Below are positions 4,985 to 20,769 of a DNA stretch of 64,000 nt, piece by piece. The stretch comes from Candidatus Eremiobacterota bacterium (GTDB lineage: Bacteria; Vulcanimicrobiota; Vulcanimicrobiia; Vulcanimicrobiales; Vulcanimicrobiaceae). The notes beneath the pieces were generated by a model. That model was not told the DNA's origin. It did no database searches and saw only the letters and a list, made by a program, of their open reading frames with translations. Location: assembly GCA_019240525.1 (NCBI GenBank), contig JAFAYE010000001.1:1523300-1587299 (forward strand). Direction: 5' to 3'. Each line of letters starts with the position of its first letter. Position 1 is the first letter of the stretch. The translations under genes and the position numbers were made by a program.

Positions 4985-7354
4985 ATGCAGGGCGCTCGTT
5001 TTCGTCGAACTGCTCGACTCGTCGCTGCGGGAGTTCTGATTGCCGGTGCGAGCGTCACACCCATTCGGGCCGAGCGACAGATCGTCGACTTGCACCGCCT
5101 CGACGCGAACTTTCAACTCTTTGCCGCCGACTCGACCGTGCCGTGGAAGACTGCTGCGGTTCGCTTGGATACCTATTCAAGCGCTCCGATTACGTTTGCG
5201 GTATACCAAGTGGACCCCGCCGACGTCTTGACCGCGGGCTCGAACTTTAGCCCTCGCGCGCTTTCGACGAGCGCTCGGCGAGCGGTGCTCGGTTTCACCT
5301 TTTCGCCGCCGGGCGGTTATCAGTTTCAGTCAAATGTCGTCCCGCTGCCGCTCGGTGCGCGCGAAGGATTCTTTGTCGTCGAAGCTCGGCGCGGTAACGT
5401 GGGCGAACAAGTTTGGATTAATCGCTCGCGCATCGGCTTGATTTCGAAACAGACTCCGGGCGGATTGGTGCTCTACGGTGCCGACCTTGGCACCGGCCGA
5501 GCGTTGGCGCGAATGCGCGTGCAACTCGTCGTCAATCGGAGTTTGCTTGCGGCGACGACCGACCCTGACGGAATCGTACGCTGGAATCGGTCGCCGCGCC
5601 CGGTTTTCGCGCTAGCGCAGTGGGGAAGCAGTTACGCCTTCTTAAGTCTGCTTCCGCAACCACCGCTCCCCGAAACGATCGTCGGCGTGCGAACGGATTC
5701 GGCGGTCGTCCACGCCGGCGATGTCGTGCGCGTCGCGGGTTTCGCGCGGACGCGCACGCGCGGCATCTTGCGTGCAAGCACCGGAAGCGCGGTCGTCTCC
5801 CTTCGTGCCGGCGCAACGGTTGTCGCGCAGGTGCGCGCGCCGCTCGATGCGGCAGGTGCTTTTTTGGCGAGCTTACCGCTTCCCGAAAATGCGGCGGCGG
5901 GCGAATATACCGTGCTCGCTCAAACGGCCGGCGGTGTCGGTGGGGCAACCGTCGATGTCGATGCCAACGCGGCGGGACTCTCGCTGGACGTCAGTGGGGC
6001 GTGCGATGGTGCGTGCGATCCGCGAGCGGACGTGCCGATTTCGGTACGGGCGTCGCGTGGCGGCGTGACCGTGCACGTTCACGTCGTGCGGTCGCCACAC
6101 GTCGATGTCGTCCAGGTGCCGGATACTCTGCCGTGGGCGACCACGGAGTGGTTCGACGCGACCGTGACGACAAACGCGAGCGGCAACGCCACGTTCGACA
6201 TTCCCCATCCCAATGACGAACTGGCGTCAACGTACGGCGTGCACGTCGATTCGAGCGGAGCGACGGCCGACACTCGCGTCACCGTTCCCACGGCGCAGGC
6301 CGCGCTGCGATTGATCGTCGATCGCAGCGAACTGGCACCCGGCGCCGCCTGCAACTTCGACGTCTACGCCGATGGGCTCGATTCGAAGCCGCTTGCGGGT
6401 GCCAACGTTACCGTCGAGTTGACGCACGGCGCGACCGGCGACGAACAACAGCTAACCTTGGACGGCGACGGTCACGCGCGCGGAACGTTTCACTCGCCGG
6501 AGCTTGGCACGAACTTTCTGCTTGCATGGATCGATCGAGGCGGACGCGCTGAGGACGCCGGGCAGGTTCGCGTCGACCCGCAAGCAGCCTCGCCATCAAC
6601 GGAGGGCGGAAGCGCGAACGTGCGCATGACGTTCGATCGCGCAGTCTATCGCGCCGATGAAGCGATTCGCGTCGAGGCCGAAGCGCCGGGCGCGCAAGGC
6701 AGCGCGCTGCTCACCTTCGAAAGCGCGCTCGGCATCGACGTGCGGACCGTGAGCACGGCCGGGGGACGGGCGGTCGCGCAACTGCATGCTTCCGACGCCG
6801 CCGGCGAACTGCGGGTTGGCGCCGCATTCGTGCGCGACGGTGCGTTGGAATGGAGCACGGCACCGATAACGCTTGCCGCGCCGGGTCGTCCGAGCGCGGC
6901 GAGACTGAGCGTTCCGAGCGCCGAATACGCGCCGAGCGAATCGGCCAAGATCGCCTTCGCAGGCGACGCCGTCGGGCACGGAACGTTCGTGGTACGCATC
7001 AGTCGTGGAACGGCGACCGGCAGCGCTCTCTTTGCCACCGCGCCGGGCCTGCTCGCCATCGGCGTAACCACGACCCAAAGCAGCGCGCCGGAAACGCCAA
7101 CCTGGCACCCTTGGGTAAACTCGACCGGAGATCGTTCGCAGGTTCTGGGTTTTGTGCGCCGTACCGAGCCGCCGCCGCAGTTGTCGCTCTCAGAGGCCGA
7201 GACGCAAGCCGTTTCGTGGAGCGTCACGCGCGCGGACGGCGGCGGCATTGCGGTCGCGCTTCCCCCACGGAGTGGACGTTATGAACTCTCGGTTCTTGGG
7301 ATTGCCGACGATGGCGGCGTGAGCGCCGGCTCGTCGACGATCGTCGTACGGTAG
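4985..7354 (+). CDS. secreted macroglobulin-like (MG-domain) protein
   Basis: The frame is open from 4790, but the ATG at 4985 starts a basic n-region and hydrophobic core (ARLVAAGVLIAGASV), so I place the start there, giving 789 residues. The rest is a chain of beta-sandwich-like segments. Stretches such as VYRADEAIRVEAEAPG and SVPSAEYAPSESAKIAF resemble the MG domains of bacterial alpha-2-macroglobulins, with the usual 'Y-x-P/A-G/D-E' opening. The thioester motif (CxEQ) and the C-terminal helical domain of full-length A2M are absent, so it is at most an MG-only relative. It lies 8 bp before polA. Family assignment is moderate; that it is an exported beta-rich protein is secure. Confidence 0.65.
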   Translation: MQGARFRRTARLVAAGVLIAGASVTPIRAERQIVDLHRLDANFQLFAADSTVPWKTAAVRLDTYSSAPITFAVYQVDPADVLTAGSNFSPRALSTSARRAVLGFTFSPPGGYQFQSNVVPLPLGAREGFFVVEARRGNVGEQVWINRSRIGLISKQTPGGLVLYGADLGTGRALARMRVQLVVNRSLLAATTDPDGIVRWNRSPRPVFALAQWGSSYAFLSLLPQPPLPETIVGVRTDSAVVHAGDVVRVAGFARTRTRGILRASTGSAVVSLRAGATVVAQVRAPLDAAGAFLASLPLPENAAAGEYTVLAQTAGGVGGATVDVDANAAGLSLDVSGACDGACDPRADVPISVRASRGGVTVHVHVVRSPHVDVVQVPDTLPWATTEWFDATVTTNASGNATFDIPHPNDELASTYGVHVDSSGATADTRVTVPTAQAALRLIVDRSELAPGAACNFDVYADGLDSKPLAGANVTVELTHGATGDEQQLTLDGDGHARGTFHSPELGTNFLLAWIDRGGRAEDAGQVRVDPQAASPSTEGGSANVRMTFDRAVYRADEAIRVEAEAPGAQGSALLTFESALGIDVRTVSTAGGRAVAQLHASDAAGELRVGAAFVRDGALEWSTAPITLAAPGRPSAARLSVPSAEYAPSESAKIAFAGDAVGHGTFVVRISRGTATGSALFATAPGLLAIGVTTTQSSAPETPTWHPWVNSTGDRSQVLGFVRRTEPPPQLSLSEAETQAVSWSVTRADGGGIAVALPPRSGRYELSVLGIADDGGVSAGSSTIVVR

Positions 7355-13043: not shown

Positions 13044-13100
13044 ACCGAGCGCTTGTATGGGAATAGAGTACTGCACTTGACTCGAGAGAGGATGTTCGAC

Positions 13101-13316
13101 ATGGCACAAGAGACCGGACAGGCCGGTGGGATGAGCGTTCGCGAGGCAGGCCGCCGCGGCGGCGAGCGCGTGAAGGCAAAGTATGGCTCGGAATTTTACG
13201 AAGAAATCGGCCGCAAGGGCGGGGAAGCGACGAAAAGCAAGTACGGCCCCTCGTTCTATGAAGTGATCGGCCAAAAGGGCGGTCAGCGACCGAAACGCAA
13301 AACGACGGCATCGTAG
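13101..13316 (+). CDS. KGG-repeat stress protein (short copy)
   Basis: 71 residues. ATG at 13101 is preceded by GAGAGAGG about 8 nt upstream; a longer in-frame start at 13053 lacks one. After MSVREAGRRGGE the protein has 20-residue units with a GG pair and a Y-G-x-x-F-Y-E core: GRRGG, GRKGG and GQKGG. This is the KGG pattern of small hydrophilic stress-induced proteins (Con-10/GsiB type). Such proteins are thought to be disordered and protective in desiccation or starvation. A paralogue with one more unit follows 34 bp downstream. Confidence 0.85.
   Translation: MAQETGQAGGMSVREAGRRGGERVKAKYGSEFYEEIGRKGGEATKSKYGPSFYEVIGQKGGQRPKRKTTAS
13149..13268 (+). repeat. two 60-bp KGG coding repeats
   Basis: Two imperfect 60-bp in-frame units, each encoding 20 residues that begin G-R-[RK]-G-G and end F-Y-E-x-I; a partial third unit (GQKGG) follows. 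Confidence 0.75.
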
Positions 13317-13350
13317 CGGCCATCATACCCATATTGGGTAAGGTAGACCG

Positions 13351-13659
13351 ATGGCTGAGAAGAACGAGCCCGCCTCAAAGCGAGAAATGTCTGTTCGTGA
13401 AGCGGGTAAGAAAGGGGGAGACACCGTACGCGATCGGTACGGCTCCACATTTTACGAAGACATTGGTCGCAAGGGTGGCAAAGCGACGCGCGATCGCCAC
13501 GGCGTTGAATTCTACGAGTCCATCGGTCAAAAAGGCGGCAAGGTCGTCAAGGAAAAGTATGGCTCGGATTTCTACGAGGAAATCGGGCACAAAGGCGGTC
13601 AGAAGGTCAAGAAGCTGATCGCCGAGGCCAAGAAAAAGCTTGGCGGAGAGAGGAGTTAG
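13351..13659 (+). CDS. KGG-repeat stress protein (long copy)
   Basis: 102 residues, ATG with AAGG about 8 nt upstream. It shares MSVREAG with the upstream copy and carries three full 20-residue units (GKKGG, GRKGG, GQKGG) plus a closing GHKGG, then a lysine-rich tail (KKLIAEAKKKLGG). There are no cysteines and no membrane segment. Family proteins are induced by stress and are thought to be intrinsically disordered. The tandem arrangement and shared N-terminus indicate duplication. The 3' end overlaps the convergent lptC-like gene by 4 bp. Confidence 0.87.
   Translation: MAEKNEPASKREMSVREAGKKGGDTVRDRYGSTFYEDIGRKGGKATRDRHGVEFYESIGQKGGKVVKEKYGSDFYEEIGHKGGQKVKKLIAEAKKKLGGERS
13405..13584 (+). 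repeat. three 60-bp KGG coding repeats
   Basis: Three consecutive imperfect 60-bp units, each encoding G-x-K-G-G ... Y/H-G-x-x-F-Y-E-x-I, followed by a partial fourth (GHKGG). They match the units of the preceding gene. Confidence 0.78.
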
Positions 13660-14216
13660 CGCGCGACGTCGACGCCGCCGCTAACTTTTCCGAGATGAAC
13701 GGTATCGTCGTCGAAGTTGACGGTGATGCCGTCGATTCGCAAGGTTTGATCACCGGAGCGCACGTACGCCGGATGCGCCATGCGCAGGAGCTTGGCGTCG
13801 TTGGTCCACGTTACTAAGTCGGTATCGAAGGCGCGGCGTTCGGGATCGTCGATTTGCTCGATATGGACTTTACCGACGGCGGTGAAATCGAGCGTTTGAA
13901 TGTTGAGCGTCACATGCTTGGCGGAGATTCGTAGGTAGGGTTTACCTTTGCGGAAGACGATGCCGTTGCGTACGCCGTCAACAGTGCCGCTCAGCCCGTC
14001 GGAGGCAAGCCGGGCGTGATCGTAGTCGAAGCTCCATGACTTCGTTTTGATGTGGTTGTTTTGCACGTATCCGCCACGCAAGTCGATCGGCGCCTGATTG
14101 GGGGGCAACGGCGGCGCACCGCCGCCGGCCAAGACGATTTCGACGACGACGTAGATGGCGAGCGCCACGCCCGCGCCTACCGCAAGCCGCTTCCACCATA
14201 AGGCCTTACGCCGCAT
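13656..14216 (-). CDS. LptC-like periplasmic LPS-export protein
   Basis: 186 residues with one N-terminal membrane helix (LAVGAGVALAIYVVVEIVLA) preceded by basic residues, then a beta-strand-rich periplasmic part. Segments such as SWSFDYDHARLASDG, ISAKHVTLNIQTLDFTAVG and VTWTNDAKLLRM follow the LptC/LptA/OstA pattern of repeating amphipathic strands. LptC links the inner-membrane ABC transporter to the periplasmic bridge. The gene overlaps the lnt stop by 11 bp on the same strand. LptC is the likeliest call because of the single anchor, but LptA/LptC-like members of this fold are hard to separate by eye. Confidence 0.65.
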   Translation of the reverse strand: MRRKALWWKRLAVGAGVALAIYVVVEIVLAGGGAPPLPPNQAPIDLRGGYVQNNHIKTKSWSFDYDHARLASDGLSGTVDGVRNGIVFRKGKPYLRISAKHVTLNIQTLDFTAVGKVHIEQIDDPERRAFDTDLVTWTNDAKLLRMAHPAYVRSGDQTLRIDGITVNFDDDTVHLGKVSGGVDVAR

Positions 14217-15702
14217 CGGGCCATTCCGCCGCGTCCGGGTGCACCGAGTGCAGGGGCACTAAGAGGCCGACGTACAGCACGGCCAAGAGAAGGCCGATCG
14301 TCGTCGGACCGATTTGCGAAAAGATCGTGACGACGCGCGGTCCGACAAAGCCGGCCACGATCGTGCGCTCGTCCAGGCGGCTGCGCTTTTGCCAGCGGCC
14401 GTCGGGTGCGATGATCCCGCTAATTCCAGTTGCCGCAGCACGGACCACGTACGCGCCGGTCTCGATCGCGCGCAGTTGCGCGATCTGGGCGTGCATGTAC
14501 GGTCCTGAGGTTTTGCCAAACCAGGCGTCGTCGGTGCTGACGACGAGCAGCTGCGCGCCGCGCCGCACCTGCGCGAATGCCAAGTCCGCGAAGGCCGACT
14601 CCCAACATATGAGCGGTGCAATGGGAAGCGCCGACGTCGCATAGATGCCGTCATCGCGTCCTTGAGCCAAGCCGCCGTTGAGCAAACCGACGTACGGGAG
14701 CCACGACAAAAAACGGCGTCCCGGAAACCACTCGGCAAACGGAACGAGTTGCCGTTTATCGTAAACGACGTAGCCGCCGGTGGGCGCAAAGATATAGAGC
14801 GCGTTGTAGAGCGCGCCCGGTCCGGCGGCCAAGCTGCCAGCAACGACGGTCGAACGCGCATCCCGGGCCAGATCGGAGAAGCGGCCGAAATAGATCGCGT
14901 TTGCGTCGAGCTCCGTTGGAATCACGGTTTCGGGCCAGACGATCAACTTTGGGTCGGCGCGACCGGCAACGCGCGTCATCGAGCTGTAGCGTCGAACCGC
15001 CAATGATAACCCGCGCGGATTCCACTTGAACGATTGCGCGATGTTTCCTTGAATCGCCGCGACCGGAATCTTCGGCGGAGGCAGCCGTCGCGCGGGCCAC
15101 GCGCTCCACGCCGCCAAGCCGAGCACCGTGACGGTAGCGAGAGCTATTGCCAGTGAGCGCCAGGTTCGGCGATGCAGCGCGTCGGCGAGATATGCGCCGA
15201 TCGCACAGAGAACGAACGTCGTGCCGTAGGTTCCGGCGTACGCAGCGAAAACGCGCAACGGCGTGTCGGCTTGCGTGTAACCGAGTTGGTCGAACGGCGC
15301 GGCGAGGATTCCAATCGATCGCAGCCACTCGCAGACGGTGAAGGCTGCGGCGGCGCCGAGCGGTGCGAGATTGGGCGACATGCGTGCGTACCCGATTGCC
15401 GCAAGAGCGCCCGCGAGCGCGACGAACGGCGCTTCGAAGAGCGCGGGACCAAACGCAATGAATGGTCCGAAGATGCCGATGTAGCGGGCGACCGTATGGC
15501 CGACCCAGGCGAAATCCGCCGTGAAAAAAATCAAGCCAGCAAACCAACCGCAAAGAGCCGCCTTTTTCCAGGATGCTCCCTGCCAAATCCAGAAAAGTGC
15601 GGCAGTGCCGAACGGCACGAGCCATGCCGCGCCGATTTTTGGAAACGCCGCTGCCAACGCCAACGCCGCAACAGCCGCGATGCCGACGTCACGCAATGGC
15701 AT
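14206..15702 (-). CDS. lnt: apolipoprotein N-acyltransferase
   Basis: About 498 residues. The first 190 or so form several membrane helices and the rest is a nitrilase-type domain. The catalytic Glu-Lys-Cys triad is visible as IVWPETVIPTE, YDKRQLVPFAEWFPG and PLICWESAFADLA. Lnt adds the third acyl chain to lipoproteins in the inner membrane of diderm bacteria. An upstream extension would run through the divergent lipoprotein gene, so I place the start at ATG 15702; ATG 15714 is an alternative. Neither has a Shine-Dalgarno. A final membrane helix precedes the hydrophilic C-terminus. Confidence 0.93.
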   Translation of the reverse strand: MPLRDVGIAAVAALALAAAFPKIGAAWLVPFGTAALFWIWQGASWKKAALCGWFAGLIFFTADFAWVGHTVARYIGIFGPFIAFGPALFEAPFVALAGALAAIGYARMSPNLAPLGAAAAFTVCEWLRSIGILAAPFDQLGYTQADTPLRVFAAYAGTYGTTFVLCAIGAYLADALHRRTWRSLAIALATVTVLGLAAWSAWPARRLPPPKIPVAAIQGNIAQSFKWNPRGLSLAVRRYSSMTRVAGRADPKLIVWPETVIPTELDANAIYFGRFSDLARDARSTVVAGSLAAGPGALYNALYIFAPTGGYVVYDKRQLVPFAEWFPGRRFLSWLPYVGLLNGGLAQGRDDGIYATSALPIAPLICWESAFADLAFAQVRRGAQLLVVSTDDAWFGKTSGPYMHAQIAQLRAIETGAYVVRAAATGISGIIAPDGRWQKRSRLDERTIVAGFVGPRVVTIFSQIGPTTIGLLLAVLYVGLLVPLHSVHPDAAEWPDAA

Positions 15703-15712
15703 CGAGGAGATC

Positions 15713-16450
15713 ATGATACGCAGATCGAGTTTTGGTTTTTTGATCGTTGTCGTAACGGCGTTCATCGTTGCGGCGTGCGGTCGCCAGGTCACGCCAAATC
15801 CTCCGGGATTAGGACCCGGCGGCGCGCCTCCGGGATACATGGCCGTACTCTTTGACACCCAATCGCCGTTCAACTTCAGCCAGTACCAATATATGGTCGT
15901 CTTCAACACGTCCGGCAGCGGCATCACGCCCTCGACGGACACGTTGCAGACGAATTGGGCAGGCTATTCGACGGCGCTGATCGCGCTGGGCAACGGCATA
16001 TCGTCATATGCCGAGCCGGTCCAATTTACGCGCACAATTAACCCTCATCAACCGCCGATCTGGCAGCGCTTAGGGACGACCCCGCAAATATTTTCATACA
16101 ACCTCAACAACAACGGAACCGGCACGGAGTTCTCGATTCTGGCGAAGCTCTCGATCTTTACCTACAACCCGTCGCCGTCGCCCTCGCCGAGCTCCTCGCC
16201 ATCGACGGTCTGGAAGTTCAATGCGTTCACGACCCAAGCGACCAACGGCGGCCAATGGCAGTTCTACGATTCGATGGGAGCCGGCGGACCCGTCGATCCG
16301 CAGTACAATTGCTGCTCGCCGACACTGTGCATGACCGAGCCGTTCGACAACACCTACTACGCGCAAGACACGCAGATATCGGACCCCTCGGCGGAAATCG
16401 TCACGGTCGAAATCGCAAACAACCCCGCGTCCCCATCGCCTTGTCCGTAG
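15713..16450 (+). CDS. lipoprotein of unknown function
   Basis: 245 residues from ATG 15713, with GAGGAG just upstream. The N-terminus is a lipoprotein signal (RRSSFGFLIVVVTAFIVAAC) with the lipobox cysteine in VAACG. The mature part starts with a proline/glycine linker, then a beta-rich domain and a low-complexity Pro-Ser stretch (NPSPSPSPSSSPST) near residue 165. Two cysteines are adjacent (YNCCSPT). I recognise no family. It is divergent from lnt with essentially no intergenic space, and the metallothionein-like gene starts 2 bp after it, so the two are probably co-transcribed. Confidence 0.75.
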   Translation: MIRRSSFGFLIVVVTAFIVAACGRQVTPNPPGLGPGGAPPGYMAVLFDTQSPFNFSQYQYMVVFNTSGSGITPSTDTLQTNWAGYSTALIALGNGISSYAEPVQFTRTINPHQPPIWQRLGTTPQIFSYNLNNNGTGTEFSILAKLSIFTYNPSPSPSPSSSPSTVWKFNAFTTQATNGGQWQFYDSMGAGGPVDPQYNCCSPTLCMTEPFDNTYYAQDTQISDPSAEIVTVEIANNPASPSPCP

Positions 16451-16452
16451 CC

Positions 16453-16620
16453 ATGCACGAAACGCCGCTCGAGTGCTCCCACGACATCTGCAATTGCTCG
16501 GTGACGGGATCCGTCGACGGGGGCGATGTCTACTGCAGCAGCTCCTGTCGCAACGTCGACGAGCAAGGCGTAGAATCCGAAACGTGCGCCTGCGGTCATC
16601 CGGAGTGTGACACGCCTTAG
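16453..16620 (+). CDS. small metallothionein-like protein (55 aa)
   Basis: ATG 2 bp after the lipoprotein stop. The protein has eight cysteines in 55 residues: ECSHDICNCSV, VYCSSSCRN and ETCACGHPECD. This C-x-C / Y-C-S-x-x-C / C-G-H-x-x-C layout is that of bacterial metallothioneins (SmtA/BmtA type), in which nine Cys and one or two His hold a Zn4 cluster. Here there are eight Cys and two His that could serve as ligands. A role in binding zinc, cadmium or copper is inferred from the family. No SmtB-type repressor is in view. Easily missed because of its size. Confidence 0.72.
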   Translation: MHETPLECSHDICNCSVTGSVDGGDVYCSSSCRNVDEQGVESETCACGHPECDTP

Positions 16621-16624
16621 CGGG

Positions 16625-19123
16625 CTAAAAGTTGAAGGTCGTCGGAATGACCGGCTGCGATTGCCCGATGTTGAAGACGGCCGTTTGGCTCGGAAAGGCC
16701 AACAGATTGAGGCCGAGGTTGATCGCTTGTTGCGATTCGTTGTAGAGCACCAGCAACTGATAACAATTGCCGATCGTGCGCGTGTAGTAAATGATCTTGT
16801 CGGAGACGAACTCGTGTTGCAGCGACGGTCTCCAGTTGATGTTGGTAACGAACTGCAGCGAGGCGTCGCGGCCGAACGGCGTGGATAGCTGAAGGTTCGT
16901 GGTTTCGAACCCTTGACCGGCGCCCGGAATGAACGAACCGGCGAGCAGGAGCACGGATCGAGTCGACGGCCGCATCGAAAGCTGATAACTCAGCGGCTGC
17001 GCGAGGCCATCGAAGTTGGTCGTCCAGCCGACGGCAAAGGCGTAAATGTCGTCGTTGAAGAGCCGAATCATGTCTTGCGCATTCTTGGTATTCATCGTGG
17101 GCTGCTGATCGAGATATTGAAAGGGGACGAGCGCGGGTCCGTTATAGTTCGCTTCGTTGTACGTCAAGGTATTGACGATGTGCTGGCTGATCGGCGTCGT
17201 GAGGCTCAAGTCTTGCTGAACGGCGGCTTTGAGGTCGCCCGTGCCGTATGCGTATTGGTCCACCGTTACCGTGCCTTGAAAATCGCTGCCGAATACCTTC
17301 GCTTCGACTGGCCCCGCGACTAAATTCGCGTCACCGCGCCAGGTCGCGAGCGCCAGTGGATACCCTTCACCGGCAGGATTGCTGTACTCGCCGACCGTGA
17401 GGTCGGCGGAGAGCGGAATGACGAAGTGGGGAAAGAAATCCGTCGGGCGCACTTCGAATTCGGGAATCTTGTTGATTCCGGTCGCCTCTTGCGAGTAGAT
17501 TTTGTCCCACTCCATCTGATAGTCGGCCCCGGACGTGGTGTACTGCAACAAATAATCGAACTCCGACTGATTGCTGAACGAAGTAATTCCGCCGAAGCTC
17601 GCACTGCTGTTGCTGATGTTGTACGTAACGGTTTGATTCAAGCTCTCGTTGAACTGCCGCGTGTCCGTAAAGGTAAAGCTGTCGCTGCTCGACTGGCCGC
17701 CGACCGACGTGTGGCTGAAGCTGTAATTTTGCGAGGTTTGCGCGGTTTGGTGAACGATGGCCTCGCTGAGCGTTTCGTTCGGCGGAATGCTGATCAGCGG
17801 TCCGTAGTTCGCTTGATAAGCGAACTGAAAGTTGCTGCGCAAATGCTCGGAGATATTTTCCTGCTCCGTCAGCGTCGCATTGGTCTGAGTGCCGCCGGCG
17901 GAACGATTGTTGATCGTATAGACGCTGACGCTCACGCTGCGACGCCCGCGACGGCTTGAATAGAAGCCGACGTAGCCGAGTCCCAAACCCTCTTTGGTGA
18001 AATAGTTGACGATGTAGTAGCCGTAGTAGTATTGGTCCTTGCCGAAAGGAATTTGGACCTTGATCCATGCGCCTTCGTACGAGTCGTAGCCGACCTCCGG
18101 AAACCAGTGCTGTCGCCCGCGCTGGCCTTCGACGCTGCGCAGTGGAATGACGAGCAGGGGCAAATAGAAAACCGCTGCGGCACCTAGCCAGAGCACCGCT
18201 TTGTGAATCACGATTTTATCGCCAGGGTAGACGTCCATGTCTTTGCCGGTAATGTGATAGCCACCGCGTGGATTCTCGCAGGTGGTAATGTAGGGATTCA
18301 GTCCATGCGCCGTGCCGTCGGGATCGGTGTGCAGATCGGTCGCGGAGAAGTGGACGAGTCCGCGTTGGACGCCCTCGTCGCTCGCCCCCTTGCCGTTTTG
18401 TAGTTTAGCGGTCTGCGCAACCGTGTCGAAAATAATGACGTCGGCGGCGAGCACGGAGTTGTGTTCGTGATTGACGAGAAAGGGATGGCCCGTGATCGTG
18501 ATCGTACGGGCGCCGTCGTAGTGCGCGTGCTGACCGACGATCTCTTCATCCGCGTAGTAAATGTGCACGTTCCCGACCGCGTCGCTGGGCTCTCCGCGCG
18601 CTCGGTTTCCCGTCCACGTGTCGGAGATCACCGCAACGTCGCCGGGTGCGAGCGTCGGCACGCCGGTCGGCTCGGCGGTCGGCTGCGGCGTTGCTTGCCC
18701 GGCTGGCGGGATTGGCGGTGGCGTCGAGCCGCCGCGAACCAAGAAGATCGGCTCCGTGGACGCGACGGGCGTGGGCGTTGCAATCGGGATCGGCGGTGGC
18801 GAAACCCCCGGCGTCTGCCCTGGCGCCGGCGGCGGCGTTCGATTCAGGGTGTAGGTGCCATTGCTCACTCCGGGCGGCACGACCGGCAGGCCGGGCGTCG
18901 AGACCGGCGCCGGCGAGCTACTTGCTGGAGCGGTTACCTGTGCGACGGTTTGCGCGTCATCGCGATAATGCTGCGCGCAGCTTTGCGTGTTGAAGAGTTC
19001 CAGGGCGAGCTGCTGGCGGTTATCGTCAGCTGCGAGCGACGCGGTCGGGAAGGCCGCGTAGAGAGATGTAGCGAGCGCCGCAATCGCGGCAACAGCGCAG
19101 TGGAGACGTTTTCCGAAGGGCAC
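16625..19123 (-). CDS. lptD: LptD/OstA-like outer-membrane LPS-assembly protein
   Basis: 832 residues, GTG start, signal peptide ending near FPTASLAA. Residues 65-145 are a proline-rich linker (repeated PPP, TPTP). Then comes an OstA-like domain (AVGNVHIYYADEEIVG, HAHYDGARTITITGHP, VLAADVIIFDTVAQTAKL) and a long beta-barrel region with many aromatic strands (QYYYGYYIVNYF, LGLGYVGFYSSRRG). LptD inserts LPS into the outer leaflet. The linker between signal peptide and OstA domain is unusual. The gene follows lptF/G by 4 bp in the same operon. Confidence 0.8.
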   Translation of the reverse strand: MPFGKRLHCAVAAIAALATSLYAAFPTASLAADDNRQQLALELFNTQSCAQHYRDDAQTVAQVTAPASSSPAPVSTPGLPVVPPGVSNGTYTLNRTPPPAPGQTPGVSPPPIPIATPTPVASTEPIFLVRGGSTPPPIPPAGQATPQPTAEPTGVPTLAPGDVAVISDTWTGNRARGEPSDAVGNVHIYYADEEIVGQHAHYDGARTITITGHPFLVNHEHNSVLAADVIIFDTVAQTAKLQNGKGASDEGVQRGLVHFSATDLHTDPDGTAHGLNPYITTCENPRGGYHITGKDMDVYPGDKIVIHKAVLWLGAAAVFYLPLLVIPLRSVEGQRGRQHWFPEVGYDSYEGAWIKVQIPFGKDQYYYGYYIVNYFTKEGLGLGYVGFYSSRRGRRSVSVSVYTINNRSAGGTQTNATLTEQENISEHLRSNFQFAYQANYGPLISIPPNETLSEAIVHQTAQTSQNYSFSHTSVGGQSSSDSFTFTDTRQFNESLNQTVTYNISNSSASFGGITSFSNQSEFDYLLQYTTSGADYQMEWDKIYSQEATGINKIPEFEVRPTDFFPHFVIPLSADLTVGEYSNPAGEGYPLALATWRGDANLVAGPVEAKVFGSDFQGTVTVDQYAYGTGDLKAAVQQDLSLTTPISQHIVNTLTYNEANYNGPALVPFQYLDQQPTMNTKNAQDMIRLFNDDIYAFAVGWTTNFDGLAQPLSYQLSMRPSTRSVLLLAGSFIPGAGQGFETTNLQLSTPFGRDASLQFVTNINWRPSLQHEFVSDKIIYYTRTIGNCYQLLVLYNESQQAINLGLNLLAFPSQTAVFNIGQSQPVIPTTFNF

Positions 19124-19127
19124 GCGG

Positions 19128-20282
19128 TCAGCGCTCTTCCAGCCAAAGCAGAATCACGCCGGCAGTACCGATGATGATGTTCGGGAGCCACGCCGCAAGA
19201 TACGGATTCATTGCGCCGTTTCGGCCGAAGGCCGATGCGGCTGAGACCATGAGATAATAGCAGAAGAACGCGACGATCGAGAGAGCGATGCCGAGCATGC
19301 GACCGCGTTTGCCGAAACGCAGCGCGAGCGGAACGGCAACAACGACACCGATGATGCAGGCGAACGGCCAGGCGAGCTTGTTGGCGAGATTGATCTGCAG
19401 GCTACCCATTGCGGTTCCGCCGATGCCTTGAGATTGCAATGCATTGACCTGCGTTCGCAAGGACTTGCTGCTCATCGTCCACGGATCGTTATTGACCTGA
19501 CTAACGAATTGCGAGGCCGTTTCGCCGAGCGGCAACCCAATGGAGATGCTCTTGACTCGCTGTTGGTTGGTGACGAAGCCGTCGTCGTTGTAGCGTGTGT
19601 CAACGACCTCGTGCAGTATGAGGCTGCTGCGCGCGACCGATGCGTTCTTTGCCTGAAGCGTTTCGTTCCAGGGCCCGAATCGCGCAGGCTTAAAAATTTG
19701 CACGTCGAGCATGGTCTTGTTGTCGGGCGCGACCTGTCCCACATAGAAGGTGTTACCGGTGTCGGGGTCTTTGCGGAAAAACTGCGGCTCCACCGGCAGC
19801 GCATCGGTGTGATAAATAATTTGATAGAACGTTCGCGTCGATAGCTCCACCGACGCGGGCGCAATCCATTCGTTCATACCGTAGGCGATCAAGAACATCG
19901 CAACGCCCAGGAGCAGCGGCGAGACGACGATGCGCATAACCGGTATTCCGGCGGTCCGCATAGCCGTAACCTCATTGTCGCCCATGACGCGCCCCATTGC
20001 GAGCAGCGCCGCGAAGAGGCAGCCGAAGGGAAACGCCATTGGAATGGCCTGCGGAATGCGAAAGACGACGAAACGCAGCACCAAAAAGAACGGCGCGTGC
20101 TGATTGATGATGTAATCCGCGGCCAGAAAGAAAATATTGAGCGCCCAAAAAAGCAAAAACGCGCCGAATGCAAAGAAGAACGGCACGAGCATCTCGCGCA
20201 GCAGGTAGCCGTCGAGAATCGGCAAGCGCAAGAGCGAGGACCCGACGCGGGGGAGCGGCTGTCGGTGCGTCAGCGTCGCCAT
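19128..20282 (-). CDS. LptF/LptG-family LPS-export permease
   Basis: 384 residues from ATG 20282; a longer frame adds 38 arginine-rich residues that overlap the upstream gene. The layout is the YjgP/YjgQ one. Helices near residues 30-130 include YLLREMLVPFFFAFGAFLLF and the signature ALLAMGRVMGDNEVTAMRTAGI. A periplasmic domain follows, then three C-terminal helices (FACIIGVVVAVPLALRF ... GVILLWLEE). It is the permease of the LptB2FG exporter. Only one such gene is here, so it may act as a homodimer or pair with a gene elsewhere. LptF and LptG cannot be separated from sequence alone. Confidence 0.88.
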   Translation of the reverse strand: MATLTHRQPLPRVGSSLLRLPILDGYLLREMLVPFFFAFGAFLLFWALNIFFLAADYIINQHAPFFLVLRFVVFRIPQAIPMAFPFGCLFAALLAMGRVMGDNEVTAMRTAGIPVMRIVVSPLLLGVAMFLIAYGMNEWIAPASVELSTRTFYQIIYHTDALPVEPQFFRKDPDTGNTFYVGQVAPDNKTMLDVQIFKPARFGPWNETLQAKNASVARSSLILHEVVDTRYNDDGFVTNQQRVKSISIGLPLGETASQFVSQVNNDPWTMSSKSLRTQVNALQSQGIGGTAMGSLQINLANKLAWPFACIIGVVVAVPLALRFGKRGRMLGIALSIVAFFCYYLMVSAASAFGRNGAMNPYLAAWLPNIIIGTAGVILLWLEER

Positions 20283-20295
20283 GGACCGGCGAGCC

Positions 20296-20769
20296 TCAGT
20301 AGCTGTGGTACGCGCTGAGCACGCGTACGACGTACGCGCGCGTCTCGGGATACGGCGGTACGCCGTGGTAGCGGTCCACCGCGCCCGGGCCCGCATTGTA
20401 TGCGGCGACCGCGAGCGTTACGTTTTCATGATAACGGTGGAGCAACGAGCGAAGATAACCGGTGCCGCACTGTACGTTCTGGGTCGGATCGAAGGGATTG
20501 GCGATTCCGCAACCCGCCGCGGTGCCGGGCATCAATTGCATCAATCCTTGCGCGCCGGCTCCGCTCAGGGCCGAGGGGTTGCCCGCCGATTCGGCCATAA
20601 GCACCGCTCGAATCAGTCCTGCCGGCACGCCATTGGCCTGCGAGGCGCCAGAGACGAGCGCGTTAAGGCTCGCCGGGTCGAGCGAGTGGGCCGAGTAGGG
20701 CAAGTAACCGCCGCCGCTGCATCCGCAGAGCAGGGCAATAAAGGCGGAAATTGCCAGCAGTCGACTCAT
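20296..20769 (-). CDS. lytic transglycosylase, lipoprotein
   Basis: 157 residues with a lipoprotein signal peptide (lipobox LLCGC, cysteine near residue 17). The SLT fold motifs are all present: catalytic Glu in AVLMAESAGNPSA, then GAQGLMQLMPGTA, LAVAAYNAGPGAVDRY and YPETRAYV. It cleaves the MurNAc-GlcNAc bond of peptidoglycan and would be attached to a membrane, probably the outer one. It is the first gene of the minus-strand envelope operon and lies 13 bp before lptF/G. Length is short, meaning a bare catalytic domain. Confidence 0.9.
   Translation of the reverse strand: MSRLLAISAFIALLCGCSGGGYLPYSAHSLDPASLNALVSGASQANGVPAGLIRAVLMAESAGNPSALSGAGAQGLMQLMPGTAAGCGIANPFDPTQNVQCGTGYLRSLLHRYHENVTLAVAAYNAGPGAVDRYHGVPPYPETRAYVVRVLSAYHSY

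Follow-up and report, generated by a model that had tools for sequence, protein, structure and literature searches.

A probable SmtA-like metallothionein variant encoded beside a lipoprotein gene in Candidatus Eremiobacterota

The locus raised the question of whether a short, cysteine-rich open reading frame, located at 16453-16620 on the forward strand of the window (the whole stretch of DNA that was analysed, 64,000 nucleotides), was a metallothionein gene, and whether its position directly behind a putative lipoprotein gene meant that the two products acted together. An earlier sequence-only reading had proposed both, a metallothionein-like gene of unreported size and a link between metal storage and an exported lipoprotein. 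Judged from its conservation, the frame is a real, conserved gene, and it probably encodes a cytosolic SmtA-like metallothionein variant.

The translated product of 55 residues contained cysteines at positions 8, 13, 15, 28, 32, 45, 47 and 52 and histidines at positions 2, 10 and 49. The count of eight cysteines given earlier was therefore correct, and a third histidine had to be added to the two reported. The C-x-C, Y-C-S-x-x-C and C-G-H-x-x-C blocks were all found as described (C13-N-C15, Y27-C-S-S-S-C32 and C47-G-H-P-E-C52), and a second C-x-C was formed by C45-A-C47. The size of the protein is ordinary and does not deserve to be called unreported, being close to the 56 residues given for SmtA in the excerpt of PMC10119931. 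An alternative in-frame ATG was located upstream, at 16255; it was rejected as the start because an in-frame stop occurred one to four codons 5' of the conserved start in 7 of 11 same-genus relatives, and hence 16453 is the likely start of the gene. An AlphaFold model of the protein, built from three input sequences, had a mean pLDDT of 46.9 and was unusable.

The conservation of the product was assessed in an alignment of 34 rows (A1), chosen by similarity and 29-82% identical to the window protein. The candidate ligands C8, C13, C15, C28, C32, C45, C47, H49 and C52 were invariant in all 34 rows. A cysteine-pattern filter was also applied when the loci for A1 were chosen, yet all 35 of 35 loci passed it, and the same invariant residues were present in the unfiltered best-match list. 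A hidden-Markov search over the open frames of loci L033-L065 and L071-L108 recovered 57 stretches (33 of them rows of A1), all of which fitted the nine-ligand spacing, although this search was seeded with A1 and therefore leaned towards its pattern. Eight cysteines were counted in 50 of these stretches, nine in six and ten in one. Loss of the cysteine pattern in homologues, named beforehand as the observation that would speak against the gene, was thus seen neither in A1 nor among the 57 stretches. Among 11 genes, each of the 55 pairwise comparisons gave an uncorrected pN/pS ratio below 1 (0.17-0.83), with 0.18-0.47 for the ten pairs that included the window gene, which indicates that the selection acting on the protein is purifying.

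The distribution of the family was determined by counting matches at E <= 0.001. Within a set of 60 genomes, composed of the window's own genome and 59 relatives, the single protein matched 29 genomes, its own counted, and the A1 profile matched 46; five matches in the list of the latter search had a stop inside the match. A phylum-wide search, the set of which overlaps the former, gave matches in 66 of 107 genomes. A scan of genome contigs yielded two relatives, both metagenome-assembled genomes titled Candidatus Eremiobacterota / Eremiobacteria. The largest numbers of metallothionein-like profile matches, eight and seven, were recorded in two genomes of about 2.5 Mb each, G049 (loci including L060, L063, L065, L096 and L101) and G044 (loci including L057, L064, L093 and L094). 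Both belong to another family of the class, one match in each lists an in-frame stop, and an expansion of this kind was unusual. Searches of plasmid records by tblastn, run without a positive control and saying little about other phyla, returned no match to the window protein at E <= 0.1 and none to a paralogue at E <= 0.01.

The kinship of the protein was investigated by several profile comparisons. Against the prokaryotic metallothionein family PF02069 (Metallothio_Pro), the window protein scored 12.7 bits with an E-value of 0.15, well below the gathering cut-off of 33 bits. The cut-off was passed by none of the 60 genomes, five of which matched at E <= 0.01, and it was passed by Synechococcus among 14 control genomes. 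The same profile was touched at E <= 1 by 14 of the 34 members (best E 6.3e-5), and one paralogue scored 25.8 bits. When A1 was compared with 177,635 PDB sequences at E <= 10, four matches were obtained, all of them named metallothionein; SmtA (1jjd, residues 4-52) was matched with an E-value of 0.0048, the only one below 0.01, and the others with 0.18, 0.27 and 0.41, values that are not significant individually. An hhalign comparison of A1 with fragments of two PDB metallothioneins gave a probability of 95.3% and an E-value of 2.3e-8 over 43 columns, whereas the best probability among 50 column-permuted copies of A1 was 24.3%. Homology to the solved members of the SmtA/BmtA type was thus detected over the domain, and the description of the product as metallothionein-like was borne out.

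The ligand set of SmtA (nine cysteines and two histidines) was not complete in the window protein, where seven equivalent cysteines, one new cysteine and one equivalent histidine were found. Since the PF02069 score lay below its cut-off and the SmtA ligand set was incomplete, the gene was not filed as a member of PF02069. No NCBIfam family was matched by the window protein, and the 34 members together touched two such families at chance level, with one member each. A paralogue at 5536-5676 of locus L101, which matched no Pfam model at E <= 0.1, contained ten cysteines and retained the C-x-C-x2-C-x-C start of SmtA; on the strength of its sequence, it plausibly links the SmtA type and the window type. 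No publication on a metallothionein in Eremiobacterota was found in the open-licence literature that was searched.

It was proposed that the N-terminal C-x4-C together with YC-x3-C (C8, C13, C28 and C32) would form a zinc-finger site of the GATA or treble-clef type, similar to that of SmtA. This quartet, which is also supported by the alignment to SmtA, we take to be the equivalent of site A of that protein. The remaining residues, C15, C45, C47, H49 and C52, would complete a metal cluster, and with nine invariant ligands the protein would accommodate about three Zn(II) ions (or Cd(II)), compared with four in SmtA. The stoichiometry of about three Zn(II) is a prediction made by analogy with the Zn4Cys9His2 cluster of SmtA and the Zn3Cys9His cluster of the Pseudomonas PflQ2 metallothionein, as these are given in the excerpts of PMC10119931 and PMC7387436, respectively. 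No signal peptide was apparent by eye, and hence the location would be cytosolic. In the cytosol, the protein, if it binds metal as predicted, would buffer zinc and sequester thiophilic metal.

A treble-clef zinc finger is the closest rival description. According to it, an SmtA-like protein of the same fold would serve to bind a protein or nucleic-acid partner, its one or two zinc ions being structural, and would not store metal. A GATA-type zinc-finger fold does occur within bacterial metallothioneins, as stated in the excerpt of PMC10612145, and DUF2116 (PF09889), a "probable treble clef" model with zinc-finger-like cysteine pairs, was touched by 6 of the 34 members (best E 0.0034), as was zf-FLZ by two (best E 0.025). 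The loop between C32 and C45 was variable in A1 and often acidic, and the eight paralogue matches in one 2.5 Mb genome seemingly exceed the needs of a simple buffer; both observations would suit this rival. However, the window protein itself did not match DUF2116 at E <= 1, and this model would explain fewer of the ligands. Moreover, invariance extended to all nine ligands, those not belonging to the finger-like quartet among them, which is what a cluster would require, and the PDB matches were metallothioneins and no other zinc fingers. A purely structural zinc finger was consequently regarded as unlikely, and the metallothionein reading was preferred.

The second part of the question concerned the lipoprotein. 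The putative lipoprotein gene (15713-16450, forward strand) encodes 245 residues with a lipobox ...VAAC22 that was read by eye; its product had no Pfam match and no NCBIfam match above the cut-off, and a structure prediction with a mean pLDDT of 27.6 was discarded. This gene ended with its stop codon at 16450, which leaves two bases ahead of the ATG of the metallothionein gene, exactly as had been noted earlier, and such a distance makes translational coupling likely. Of the 17 loci in which both genes share a strand, 16 had a candidate start no more than 20 nt before or 25 nt after the lipoprotein stop, several of them overlapping it; in four of the 16 (L040, L044, L045 and L046) it was an alternative in-frame start, and in one locus (L058) the gap from stop to start was 166. 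The adjoining stop and start suggest termination-reinitiation coupling, by which the metallothionein would be translated from the message of the lipoprotein gene, through readthrough and reinitiation. In the open-licence literature that was searched, no publication was found on a bacterial metallothionein co-transcribed or in an operon with a lipoprotein, and what was found on metallothionein with lptD was unrelated by title.

The lnt gene for apolipoprotein N-acyltransferase (14206-15714, reverse strand; LNT_N E 8.8e-25, CN_hydrolase E 4.2e-28) was divergent from the lipoprotein gene. The candidate starts of these two genes overlapped in the CATG at 15712-15715, and in all 11 of the same-genus loci compared, the tblastn matches of lnt and the lipoprotein shared 8 bases; each promoter would thus lie inside the coding region of the other gene, unless one of the starts was misplaced. 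The lnt gene was followed by a conserved gene (13656-14216, reverse strand) with kept synteny and no Pfam match, which is LptC-like by position only. Two small frames of 87 and 102 residues at 13053-13659 contained repeats of the type "YGSxFYEEIGRKGG", which presumably resemble those of stress-induced KGG-repeat proteins.

On the other side, a gene for a putative LptD/OstA-like outer-membrane protein of 832 residues (16625-19123, reverse strand) was convergent with the metallothionein gene, with 4 nt between the ends of the two frames. The protein had no Pfam match above the cut-off and no useful PDB match. It was conserved among the relatives studied, 12 of which were aligned, and no Pfam match with E < 0.04 was obtained for any of the 12, OstA_2 matching one of them with E 0.046. 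The profile identification as LptD having failed, the name rests mainly on the neighbouring gene for an LptF/LptG permease (19128-20396, reverse strand; PF03739, E 1.5e-70), the true start of which is probably located downstream of that of the open frame.

The pair was sought in relatives. Homologues of the lipoprotein were present in 37 of the 60 genomes and 34 junctions could be assessed, three being left out (G017 and G032 at a contig edge, G034 with matches near contig starts). The metallothionein gene adjoined the lipoprotein gene in 19 of the 34 junctions (the window and 18 others), including 12 of the 14 within the genus; the other 15 lacked it and kept both the lipoprotein gene and the LptD-like gene. 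In one of the loci (L034) the contig stopped before the LptD-like gene, and in two others the junction was filled with further sequence, about 3 kb in L073 and 1.8 kb in L074. The two same-genus genomes that lacked the gene (G009 and G013) had a short junction and no A1 match genome-wide at E <= 0.001; a partial PF02069 match (E 0.0048) was located elsewhere in G013. The pair was therefore a recurrent arrangement and not an obligatory one.

A dedicated partner of the lipoprotein or of the LPS-transport genes, such as a switch that is loaded with metal and adjusts envelope biogenesis, would agree with this adjacency, particularly within the genus, and with the stops and starts that overlap or abut in many loci. 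It would also agree with two of the 19 junctions (L048 and L053), in which the gene stayed in place with its strand reversed, after the LptD-like gene. Nevertheless, the junctions without a metallothionein gene kept the lipoprotein gene and its LptD-like neighbour, and members of the family were located in other contexts, such as downstream of a probable lysS at distances of 13 nt (L106 5410-5571) and 9 nt (L107 5817-5975), that gene encoding a class-II tRNA synthetase of the D/K/N type and being preceded by a greA/greB gene. The window's own genome carries the lipoprotein gene a second time, and this other copy (L088 6033-6761, 70% identical) had no metallothionein gene beside it; several relatives also showed two or more lipoprotein matches. 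Further, the lipobox cysteine was the only conserved cysteine in nine aligned lipoprotein copies, so that a direct metal partnership was unsupported. Such a dedicated envelope role was considered highly improbable. Of the proposed link between metal storage and the lipoprotein, the adjacency held and the functional tie was unsupported: what is conserved in the pairing is the order of the genes, probably with shared expression, and no evidence for a shared metal function was obtained.

Finally, the idea that the frame was no gene and merely a cysteine-rich, out-of-frame tail of the lipoprotein region was given practically no weight. Cysteine-rich frames are not rare in this G+C-rich window: of its 920 stop-free frames with 40 or more codons, 5 reached eight cysteines or more within 55 residues, and only the frame at 16453-16620 fitted the ligand spacing. 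A chance frame was refuted by the conservation of the ligands across 34 sequences of comparable length, the low pN/pS and the homologues at sites without the lipoprotein. The cysteine density by itself is not decisive for the reality of the gene; the conservation is.

A wider reading would be that Eremiobacterota contain a large metallothionein branch whose three-metal site has nine ligands (eight Cys and one His) and escapes the current family model at its cut-off, and that one sub-branch has been wired into an envelope locus of lipoprotein, Lnt and LPS transport. Taken as a whole, this reading is very doubtful; if it were true, metal-buffering capacity would track the translation of an outer-envelope lipoprotein and tie zinc status to envelope building. 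The expansion of the family and its sub-threshold annotation are mildly of interest, and the lipoprotein link is a fact of gene order. A family with profile matches in 66 of 107 searched genomes of a little-cultured phylum, with a shifted ligand set and scores below the Pfam cut-off, could go unnamed in annotation. With its naturally varied members, the number of metals required by the SmtA scaffold could be tested, and so could the question of how commonly such genes stand apart from a metal-sensing repressor. According to the excerpt of PMC7387436 (2020), the function of only two bacterial metallothioneins had been investigated before its own Pseudomonas work.

Among the known systems, the copper metallothionein MymT of Mycobacterium (NF052418) is likewise a small, cysteine-rich, bacterial metal-binding protein; its model was not matched by the window protein and was touched by only one of the 34 members, with E 0.67. 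SmtA of Synechococcus elongatus, only one residue longer, was the closest: seven of the eight window cysteines and His49 of the CGH-x-x-C block aligned with it, and the YCS-x-x-C and C-G-H-x-x-C blocks were common to both. The differences were concentrated in the ligands. The N-terminus is C-x-C-x2-C-x-C in SmtA and C-x4-C-x-C in the window protein, where the second cysteine of SmtA was replaced at the His10 column of A1 (His in 22, Tyr in 7 and Asn in 5 of the 34 rows). The middle histidine of SmtA was missing from the window family, and Cys45, two residues before the CGH block, was new. Judging from its Cys9 cluster, the ninth cysteine of SmtA should be located beyond the aligned fragment, whereas the window protein has no cysteine after C52; it also differed by its score below the PF02069 cut-off. 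In contrast to the smtA-smtB arrangement, no ArsR/SmtB-type gene was present in the window, since none of the seven PF01022 matches of the genome, searched for a divergent repressor, fell within it.

The order of the blocks was common to the window family and the PDB matches 6gv7, 6grv and 6gv6, which we take to be metallothioneins of Pseudomonas origin. These differed by a long C-terminal tail, absent from the window protein, and, as far as the excerpt of PMC7387436 goes, by a cluster of nine cysteines and one histidine compared with eight and one here. The same excerpt describes Pseudomonas metallothioneins as lacking metal-responsive regulators and having neighbour genes of unknown function. 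Hence, the window gene, which would be expressed without an adjoining ArsR/SmtB-type repressor gene, would in this respect be Pseudomonas-like and not smtA-smtB-like, and the predicted capacity of three zinc ions would be a further likeness.
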